Of a stretch of 63,757 nt of DNA, positions 46,101-48,285 are shown piece by piece. The number at the start of each line of letters is the position of its first letter. The stretch's first letter is position 1. Both the position numbers and the translations under genes were made by a program. Origin of the DNA: an uncultured Alphaproteobacteria bacterium (GTDB taxonomy: Bacteria > Pseudomonadota > Alphaproteobacteria > Rs-D84); the NCBI GenBank assembly GCA_944389135.1, contig CALXLG010000006.1, positions 1 through 63,757 on the forward strand. Direction: 5' to 3'. A model generated the notes under the pieces. It saw only the letters and a list, made by a program, of their open reading frames with translations. It ran no database searches and was not told where the DNA came from.

Positions 46101-46733
46101 ATGGCAAGAGCAGGTGCAAAACGTAGCACTAGAAAATTGAAAATTGGACGTAGCTTGGGCGTAAATTTATGGGGTCAGGCGAAATCTCCATTTAACAAAC
46201 GTAAATATAAACCTGGTCAGCATGGTCCAACATCTCGTGGTGGTAATTCTTCAGATTACGCAAAGCAGATGCGTGCAAAGCAGACATTGAAAGGTTATTA
46301 TGGTAATATCGGGGAAAAGAAATTCCGTGCTTATTACTTAGAAGCTGCCAATATGAAGGGTGACACACCAGATAACTTAATCGGTTTGTTGGAACGTCGT
46401 TTGGATGCAGTTGTATATCGTGCAAAATTGGCACCAACAGTATTCTCATCTCGTCAGTTGGTAAGCCACGGTCATATCTATGTAAATGGCAAGCGCGTTA
46501 AAATTGCTTCTTATCAGGTAAAACCTGGTGATGTAATCACAGTAAGTGAAAAAGCAAAACAGATGCCATTGGTAGTTTTGGCATTGGAATCTGCAGAACG
46601 CACATTCCCAGATTATATCAATGTAGATAGCGCAAACTTTACAGCGACATTTACTCGCGTACCTATGTTTGCAGACGTACCATATCCTGTTCAGATGTTC
46701 CCAGAATTGGTCGTCGAATTCTATTCTCGTTAA
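46101..46733 (+). CDS. rpsD: 30S ribosomal protein S4
   Basis: S4 binds 16S rRNA early in small-subunit assembly and is a classic translational repressor of its own operon in enterics. The 210-residue protein has the long N-terminal extension and the S4 RNA-binding region [33 protein letters not shown], seen as [28 protein letters not shown] precedes the ATG. TTGATT (45961-45966) and TATAAA (45982-45987) upstream are close to consensus but only 15 bp apart. The unit has a terminator shared with the next locus. Confidence 0.97.
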
Positions 46734-46768: not shown

Positions 46769-47027
46769 ATTGCTTTTTTGGTGGGTCTGCCCCTTTTGTG
46801 TGGAGATAAGATTTTTTTGCACCGTATATAGAAAGTGCAACAGGGCAGAGCCCAAAAAATAACCACCATGGTTAATTCAGGGTGGTTGGAGTTTCTAAAC
46901 AATAACTTGAATTGCGTGCTTATTCAGTATATTCACACACTCCAACCAAAAACAAGGTTGGAGATATTTTTCGTCATCTCTGACGCAAGTTAGGGCTTAG
47001 AATTCCCGTGTGGTAACCCACCATCAC
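46769..47027 (-). ncRNA. structured non-coding RNA candidate, family unknown
   Basis: No gene lies between rpsD and trpS here, but helices are dense. On the minus strand: a 5' GTG/TGGT hairpin with ACCACAC, CGTCA-GAGA-TGACG with a GNRA tetraloop (46972-46985), CTCCAACC/GGTTGGAG (46940-46963) with a second CTCCAACC at 46884-46891 that can pair with the same partner, AACCACC/GGTGGTT (46861-46887), and a long stem with GGGCAGAGCCC (46843-46853) against 46782-46792. A promoter (TATACA, 17 bp, TATACT at 47039-47034) and a terminator bound it. The GNRA loop favours the minus strand. Confidence 0.45.
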
Positions 47028-47033
47028 ACTACA

Positions 47034-47062
47034 AGTATACAATATTTTATTTCATTTGTATA
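47034..47062 (-). promoter_or_regulatory. possible promoter of the 46769-47027 RNA
   Basis: TATACA (47062-47057), 17 bp and TATACT (47039-47034) on the minus strand. The -35 match is partial. Confidence 0.4.
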
Positions 47063-47083
47063 TTTTTATTTATGTGTTATTAT
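47056..47083 (+). promoter_or_regulatory. trpS leader promoter, leaderless type
   Basis: TTGTAT (47056-47061), 16 bp and TATTAT (47078-47083) end 7 nt before the leader-peptide ATG. Confidence 0.55.
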
Positions 47084-47090
47084 TCAAATT

Positions 47091-47141
47091 ATGAGTAGAA
47101 CAGTTCCTTTTGTTTGTTTAATGCGTTGGTGGCACCGCTAA
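47091..47141 (+). CDS. Trp-rich leader peptide of trpS (candidate)
   Basis: A 16-codon ORF encodes MSRTVPFVCLMRWWHR, with two adjacent TGG codons at 47127-47132, three codons before the stop. It begins 7 nt after a -10 box without a ribosome binding site, as leaderless trpL genes of rhizobia do. GGCACC (47131-47136) and GGTTGCC (47142-47148) can form a hairpin across the stop. Only weak hairpins, no strong terminator, lie between it and trpS 88 bp further on, so the mechanism is open. Confidence 0.6.
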   Translation: MSRTVPFVCLMRWWHR

Positions 47142-47229
47142 GGTTGCCTGATTTATTATACTTTTAGCATTTTGTGCTTTTATTTTATGAACAAACAAAT
47201 TATCATAATATCTAAATAAGGATTTTATT

Positions 47230-48285
47230 ATGTCAGATTCAAAAAATATCGTATTAACGGGTATCAGACCAACTGGCGCATTACATATTGGGCATCTTGT
47301 TGGGGCGCTGATTGCAAATGTTGAAATTCAGAATCAAGGCGATTATGCACGTATGTACGGTATGATTGCCGATGCACAGGGATTAACGGATAACTTTGAT
47401 AACCCAGACAAAGTACGTGAAAATGTTATGGAAGTTGCTTTGGATATGCTGGCGGTTGGGTATGACCCCAAAAAGACAACAATGTTTATTCAATCTGAAG
47501 TTGCAGAATTAACAGAATTAACTTTTTATTACATGAACCTTGTTACTGTTGCAAGATTGCAGCGCAATCCAACGGTAAAGACGGAAATTGCACAGAAAGA
47601 AAAATTTAATGGTGGCGTACCAGTTGGGTTCTTTACGTATCCTATATCTCAGGCGGCGGATATAACTGCTTTTGGTGCAAATATAGTTCCTGTTGGGCAA
47701 GATCAGTTGCCGATGATAGAGCAGACTGCGGAAATAGTTAATAAGTTCAATAACATTTATGGTGAAACTTTGGTTTTACCGCATGCCGTTGTTCCAAAAG
47801 CGCAGGCAGCGGCAAGATTGCCTGGTACAGACGGTAATGCCAAGATGAGCAAGTCTTTGAATAACTGTATTTACTTAAAAGATTCTGCCGAAGATATTGC
47901 GGCAAAGGTAAAGACAATGTTTACAGACCCCAATCATTTGCGTGTAGAAGACCCAGGTAATACAAAAGATAATCCTGTGTTTATATATCTGTCCGTTTTT
48001 GCAAAACCAGAACACTTTGCAGCATTTTTGCCAGAGTATGCAAACTATGAAGAATTAGCAGCGCATTATGAACGTGGTGGTTTAGGTGATGTAAAGGTAA
48101 AAAAGTTTTTGAATTCGGTGCTGCAAGAAACATTAGAGCCTATCAGGGCAAGACGTGAAAGCTTTGTTGCCAGACCCGATGATGTAATGGATATATTACG
48201 TGAAGGTACAAAGGTTGCGCGTGCAGCAGCAGCAGAAACTGTTAATCACGTAAAGCGTGCAATGAAGTTAAATTATTTTGAATAA
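47230..48285 (+). CDS. trpS: tryptophanyl-tRNA synthetase
   Basis: TrpRS charges tRNA-Trp. The 351-residue class I enzyme has [17 protein letters not shown] with the HIGH box, the KMSKS loop ([10 protein letters not shown]) and the usual C-terminal helix. AAGGA lies 7 nt before the ATG. It follows a leader peptide with two Trp codons and precedes the SIMPL gene by 22 bp. Confidence 0.97.

Follow-up and report, generated by a model that had tools for sequence, protein, structure and literature searches.

Control by a leader peptide is textbook knowledge for amino-acid biosynthesis operons and is rare for aminoacyl-tRNA synthetases. Among the latter, the pheST operon of Escherichia coli is governed by an attenuator with the leader pheM, and trpRS1 of Streptomyces coelicolor by ribosome-mediated attenuation. 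In the translation attenuation of erm and cat, which senses antibiotics, a ribosome stalled on the leader alters access to the downstream Shine-Dalgarno (SD) sequence, and in Bacillus subtilis a ribosome positioned at the stop of a Trp-codon leader blocks rtpA, which lies behind a T-box. The T-box riboswitches of Firmicutes bind uncharged tRNA directly.

Classical attenuators have been predicted before trpS and leuS of Streptomyces, in a study that also cites pheST attenuation in gamma-proteobacteria (PMC1262725). Rhizobial trpL (Sinorhizobium meliloti trpLE(G), rnTrpL/peTrpL) is leaderless and controls trpE(G) by a transcription terminator (PMC7298713). The locus considered here stems from a genome-reduced gut alphaproteobacterium, Candidatus Enterousia (~0.99 Mb), and lies within a stretch of 63,757 nucleotides that was analysed as a whole and is called the window in the following. 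A sequence-only reading of this DNA had proposed a leaderless Trp-Trp leader peptide before trpS, similar to rhizobial trpL.

The trpS leader in the window and in related genomes

The 51-nt ORF of 16 codons is located between rpsD (46101-46733) and trpS (Table 1), carries two adjacent TGG codons near its end, and lies exactly where the sequence-only reading had placed it. Its ATG stands 7 nt past the -10 box TATTAT, and inspection of the sequence ahead of it revealed no SD-like motif. The hairpin over the Trp codons and the stop can be drawn as described, and the downstream gene exceeds the TIGR00233 cut-off, which supports the claim that the ORF precedes trpS and not a trp biosynthesis gene. 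A short ORF with Trp codons in frame stands directly upstream of a Trp-related gene, as in ribosome-mediated Trp leader-peptide regulators generally. No terminator-like site is present between the leader and trpS (47141 to 47229), in line with the reading, which had noted no strong terminator and suggested that control could be by another mechanism. The minimum free energy (MFE) of the complete window leader RNA is not unusual (z -0.27), and none of the Rfam amino-acid leaders (Trp_leader, Thr_leader, Phe_leader and others) reaches its gathering score in the window.

Table 1. Features of the window at the trpS leader; peptides are given here and in the text up to the stop codon
Feature	Position	Strand	Remarks
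Promoter P1 (predicted)	47056..47083	+	-35-like TTGTAT 47056-47061, 16 nt spacer, -10 TATTAT 47078-47083
Leader ORF MSRTVPFVCLMRWWHR	47091..47141	+	translation; ATG 47091, TAA 47139-47141; putatively leaderless
UCCUU, remnant anti-SD in leader	47105..47109	+	predicted to pair with AAGGA 47218-47222
Leader segment UUUGUUUGUUUA	47109..47120	+	12 bp possible with 47188-47199; MFE structure of the window leader RNA
Trp codons (TGG TGG)	47127..47132	+	second one at codon 14, as in most of the family
Hairpin GGCACC-GCUAA-GGUUGCC	47131..47148	+	spans last Trp codon and stop
Second, weak hairpin AGCA/UGCU	47165..47177	+	directly 5' of CUUUUAUUUU
Putative second promoter P2	47177..47206	+	CTTTTA, 18 nt, TATCAT; would bypass the leader
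UGAACAAACAAA	47188..47199	+	pairing partner of 47109-47120; MFE structure
trpS Shine-Dalgarno AAGGA	47218..47222	+	sequence
trpS, 351 aa	47230..48285	+	TIGR00233, 227.9 bits (cut-off 176.75)

A structured repeat (46854-47035; MFE -46.7, z -3.3) occupies part of the region between rpsD and the leader. The genome holds five related copies of it, located close to tRNA-Val/metG and on contig C3, and a similar stretch precedes leuS in another species (L373); Rfam gave no match.

TrpRS genes were gathered from 156 genomes of the genus plus some of the order Rs-D84, and the upstream regions of 134 trpS loci from the genus and near relatives were read. Homologous leaders were found at 46 of these 134 loci, the leader being absent from about two thirds of those examined. 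Close relatives bear out the expected conservation of frame and WW codons, as eight of the nine loci whose TrpRS is at least 85% identical to that of the window have the leader, seven ending in WWRR or WWRH and one in CWRR. The usual endings overall are WWRR, WWRH and CWRIAA; the first two are typical of class A, to which the window belongs (e.g. MIKVNSCFYSFVWWRR in L019, MIEVNSYFCSFVWWRR in L041 and MINISSYFSFLVWWRR in L068), and the third is typical of class B (e.g. MLKKLFIFSVNKCWRIAA in L031 and MSIKNIIFSYVNCWRVAA in L034). From the start codon to the last TGG the distance is 39 nt in 41 loci and 36 nt in five, always in frame (46/46). A -10-like hexamer ends 6-10 nt before the ATG of every one of the 46 leaders (median 7), the mean promoter score is 11.2 against 8.6 in shuffled upstream sequence, and an SD-like motif precedes a single leader. 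The spacing of the -10 element (46/46) together with the missing SD (45/46) would imply a leaderless start, and the proposed identity as a Trp leader thus gains from a frame, a W codon and a promoter spacing that are conserved in relatives with almost no SD.

Since the loci were selected for a TGG near the ORF end, the conservation of W within the 46 is partly a matter of construction, and for this reason a covariance model (R1) was built from class B alone, trained on 31 relatives without the window sequence and its whole class. R1 matches the window at exactly 47091-47232 (E 1.7e-6), its sole match in that genome, and also finds other class A leaders as well as trpS-upstream loci from further genera of the family, mostly with a readable Trp leader. 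The suggested conservation of stems is likewise seen, in that the hairpin over the Trp codon and stop displays compensatory changes among relatives (GGCGC/GCGCC, GGCGU/ACGCC, and GGCAC/GUGCC in L011). For the second hairpin, the arms match better within their own locus than after swapping in class B (12.45 vs 11.27, 0/10000); in class A this comparison was not significant.

A P2-like pattern occurs in 45 of the 46 leader loci as compared to 18 of 84 leader-free ones, and the putative promoter P2 would yield trpS mRNA without the leader. The second hairpin plus CUUUYAUUUU was considered as a promoter type of the whole genus and discarded, a related pattern being at chance level in the genome; the spacing allowed in this genome-wide count, however, fails to capture the trpS site, and P2 is retained as putative.

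The TrpRS of the window belongs to a minority type of the genus and is ~33% identical to the type found in most members. At least three TrpRS types exist in one genus (as seen from the window gene, L009-L013 and L085-L091), with identities of ~33% and ~59% to that of the window, and one genome (G026) has three TrpRS genes. Since class A leaders precede two types that share only ~33% identity, leader and trpS gene have been combined more than once, and similar leaders stand before different, mutually replaced TrpRS genes. A third form of leader, class C, bears an SD and precedes the third TrpRS type (MIEQSYAFNDFMKSPFYERWRR in L085); its members (L085, L086, L087, L089) end in GRWRR or similar, UUAUGCUUUU being complementary to an SD-proximal AAAAGCAUAA and the stop region to the sequence just upstream. 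In five further trpS-upstream regions (L033, L036, L056, L108, L119), a conserved stretch like AATCAATATACAATCACTAAA is followed by a GC-rich hairpin; no Trp leader was found at loci of this type, and no Rfam match in the four that were scanned.

Predicted pairing of the leader with the trpS Shine-Dalgarno sequence

Across the family, the stretch of leader codons ~5-9 shows complementarity to the trpS SD, and the two covary. In class B, a near-constant AUCUUU at codons 7-8 pairs with the SD AAAGGU, and the flanking bases track the SD. The pairs of anti-SD and SD read AUCUUUUC:GAAAAGGU in class B, AUCUUUGC:GCAAAGGU in L053 and L062, AUCUUUGUUG:CAACAAAGGU in L039, AUCUUUUGUG:CACAAAAGGAU in L097 and L109, and UUCUUAUU:AAUAAGGA in class A. 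Their complementarity is higher for own than for swapped partners, both over all loci (20.8 vs 16.3, sd 0.58, 0/10000) and in class B alone (19.8 vs 16.6, 0/10000), while in class A alone own pairs are not significantly better than swapped ones (679/10000), since leaders and SDs are nearly invariant in this class. The helix reaches 84% pairing over 31 class B sequences, three of its pairs having changed on both sides, and in the class B alignment every slid version of the whole two-helix structure was worse.

The predicted mean energy needed to open the SD is 4.34 kcal/mol for the native leaders, 1.71 with the codon order shuffled and 2.11 with synonymous codons (p values for shuffled and synonymous controls, 9e-9 and 1.5e-8 in class B, 0.005 and 0.003 in class A). 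As synonymous recoding lowers the opening cost, the SD pairing is not a by-product of the peptide sequence. If a ribosome is modelled as stalled at Trp-14, with textbook values as the limits of its footprint, the mean falls from 4.34 to 1.54 kcal/mol, compared to 3.85 with the ribosome at the stop. Ten further loci, mostly from other genera, gave 4.15 native, 2.68 shuffled (p 0.024) and 2.03 stalled (p 0.005). Sequestration of the SD and its relief by a stall are hence predicted by the models, and the suggestion that control proceeds by a mechanism other than termination is strengthened, since most relatives have no convincing terminator but do have an SD-sequestering helix.

The copy of the window departs from this picture. 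Its SD pairing comprises only 5 bp (UCCUU:AAGGA), whereas the anti-SD is longer in most relatives and reaches up to 17 bp. No extra sequestration is predicted for it (1.9 vs 2.3 kcal/mol with codons shuffled), and a modelled stall changes nothing (1.9 free, 2.0 stalled). In the models, a leader RNA that hides the trpS SD is thus found for the family and is weak in the window, and because the window's own pairing is weak we infer its exact switch from the relatives. The window leader RNA alone can, according to the prediction, form the 12-bp helix 47109-47120/47188-47199 upstream of the SD region, which may replace the SD pairing there. The copy is either a diverged version or a weakened one.

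From our point of view, the ORF probably encodes a leader peptide with Trp codons, and translation of this leader would gate trpS; on the strength of the models the regulation looks translational. The conservation of the ORF, the fixed spacing of promoter, start and Trp codon, the covariation of anti-SD and SD, and the predicted SD sequestration with its relief are the data behind this reading; from them we infer transcript start, translation, stalling and induction. Leaders of like design before other synthetase genes (see below) speak for it as well. Against it stand the SD of the window copy, for which no sequestration is predicted, the many trpS loci that have no leader, the putative promoter P2, and the thrS, hisS and serS leaders, in which no general SD pairing was seen. 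The P1 transcript would begin at or beside the AUG, and ribosomes would load on the leaderless mRNA. With ample charged tRNA-Trp, a ribosome would pass Trp-14, reach the stop and leave, after which leader codons ~5-9 could pair with the trpS SD and keep initiation low. A shortage of charged tRNA-Trp, whether Trp itself or TrpRS activity is low, would stall the ribosome with its A site on codon 14. It would then cover approximately nt 22-52 of the leader, and with them the greater part of the anti-SD, which would free the SD and allow more TrpRS to be made. The spacing of 36-39 nt is what such a model needs, as a stall at codon 14 would cover most of the anti-SD and a ribosome at the stop would not.

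Alternative explanations for the leader

In classical transcription attenuation, the second hairpin together with CUUUYAUUU would be an intrinsic terminator, and a stalled ribosome would favour an antiterminator. The second hairpin does covary in class B, terminator-like sites were found in 13 of the 46 loci by loose criteria, and in the same genus ileS leaders precede strong terminators in 7/8 loci (6-8 bp GC-rich stem plus U run). However, several of the 13 sites are the hairpin over the Trp codon, most trpS hairpins have 4-5 bp and a broken U tract, and the window has no terminator, so that termination was rejected as the main trpS output. In L021 and L015 the Trp-codon strand can pair with the 5' arm of the second hairpin, yet this antiterminator (GGCGCAU:AUGCGCC), clear in these two loci, is not general because it is broken in L035, L051, L052 and others, and its strand would be covered by the stalled ribosome. 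As attenuation also leaves the SD pairing unexplained, we consider it unlikely for trpS. The product of interest could also be the peptide itself, as a trans-acting small peptide or an arrest peptide, for which rhizobial peTrpL provides a precedent of trans action (PMC7298713). There is indeed conservation of IF at codons 7-8 and of an R following the W; the residues nevertheless track the SD, with IFS accompanying GAAAAGG, IFA accompanying GCAAAGG, and IFC or IFV where the SD differs. Given that sequestration falls on synonymous recoding and that class A peptides have little in common beyond WWR, a role of the peptide as such seems very improbable.

One could further imagine a real leader that, in this one genome, has ceased to regulate trpS, being a decaying copy beside constitutive transcription from P2. 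The weak SD pairing of the window, the presence of a P2-like site and the absence of the leader from most members of the genus would fit such a decay, but the copy has an intact frame and hairpin, the WW codons and the usual promoter spacing, leaders of its class are retained in several related species, and the predicted 12-bp helix would be available as a replacement. We therefore give this reading a limited, though not negligible, chance. A short ORF arising by chance behind AT-rich, promoter-like sequence might be suspected from the AT-rich genome and from the unremarkable folding of the whole leader; it is refuted by the comparative data, namely the match of an independently trained model (E 1.7e-6) and 46 homologues of fixed geometry plus those in other genera, and we attach practically no weight to it.

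Leaders before other synthetase genes and comparison with known systems

Judging by sequence, the Trp-codon leader before trpS apparently forms part of a larger group of cognate-codon leaders that precede synthetase genes of the lineage. Several matches of model R1 outside trpS lie upstream of thrS and show Thr-rich leaders such as MKLFRFIFTTTTTTPLGV. A Thr-rich leader (e.g. MKKYCVFFVTTTTTTPAGV) was found at all 54 thrS loci read in the genus (L249-L298 among them), L286 being assigned by its visible ACAACTACTACAACCCC tract; that of the window's genome (L279) reads MINKSILLITMTTTTPLGV, and a Thr leader is also present at the majority of thrS loci from the family's other genera. The same genome has the leaders MKNYLNFFSKISSPFGVVLY before serS, MISKEYLYRLVHHALVGDCL before hisS and MKLISIIIIK before ileS, whose cognate Ser, His and Ile codons are kept in relatives. 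An HH leader is present in 14 of the 17 hisS loci read (in two of the rest the start could not be resolved), a Ser leader in 5/6 serS loci, and an Ile leader in all seven ileS loci with a resolved start. The loci with cognate leaders before serS (SSPFGV), hisS (HHA) and ileS (IIIIK) are L360, L363, L364 (window's genome) and L369-L393. In terms of gene identity, serS and ileS score above the NCBIfam cut-offs, and hisS, thrS and metG fragments were named by best match.

With the terminators mentioned above, the ileS leaders are, by their sequence features, consistent with classical attenuation; general pairing with the SD was not supported in the thrS, hisS and serS leaders. Some metG loci (L003, L394, L397) contain a tiny Met ORF (MRMQR, MRMYK, MMRMYN) followed by a strong hairpin. 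Met-rich ORFs of this kind, which are missing upstream of metG in L395, L396 and L398, are possible metG leaders. No cognate leader was seen before valS, proS, glyS or pheS at the loci that were read, and in the window none was seen before lysS; the Rfam amino-acid leader models matched the trpS, thrS, hisS, ileS, serS and metG loci at chance level only.

We thus think it likely that in Candidatus Enterousia and related genera (Rs-D84) a set of synthetases is regulated singly by mostly leaderless cognate-codon leader peptides. It would comprise trpS, thrS, serS, hisS, ileS and perhaps metG, employ SD sequestration at trpS and terminators at ileS, and represent a ribosome-based counterpart of the T-box regulon that has been kept despite the loss of amino-acid biosynthesis. 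Enterousia has been described as being without amino-acid biosynthesis (PMC12306168), and because this capacity is lacking, adjustment of each synthetase to amino-acid supply may be the main remaining response. Searches of the open-access literature yielded no account of leader peptides in Enterousia or jointly before thrS and hisS, nor of synthetase leaders as a set or in this lineage. The case would be one of Trp leader-peptide control of trpS, with a putatively leaderless start, an apparently translational mode and membership in a synthetase set. The trpS design is compact, with a putatively leaderless start, Trp at codon 14 and the anti-SD within the same ORF, is directly testable, and offers annotators a rule for spotting unlisted micro-ORFs.

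With respect to rhizobial trpL, the likeness put forward by the sequence-only reading holds for the architecture, since both are short alphaproteobacterial ORFs (14-16 codons) that carry neighbouring Trp codons close to the end, the one described here being putatively leaderless as well. It does not extend to target gene and mechanism, as the gene downstream is trpS and not trpE(G), the window has no intrinsic terminator with antiterminator, no good terminator is found, and the family carries an SD-pairing segment. The Streptomyces trpS attenuators likewise have a leader peptide with Trp codons ahead of a TrpRS gene, yet they are actinobacterial, work by a classical terminator and antiterminator, and are not leaderless as far as described. 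In E. coli pheST, too, a cognate-codon leader controls an aminoacyl-tRNA synthetase operon, but by transcription termination, with an SD before the leader, and in one operon instead of a set. The control proposed here resembles that by T-boxes in acting gene by gene on many synthetase genes according to the charging of the cognate tRNA; T-boxes differ in their direct binding of uncharged tRNA, and none was detected by Rfam in the window and the synthetase loci scanned. Finally, as in erm, cat and rtpA, a ribosome on the leader would, according to the models, change access to the downstream SD, whereas in the trpS leader described here the Trp codon and the anti-SD reside inside one putatively leaderless ORF.
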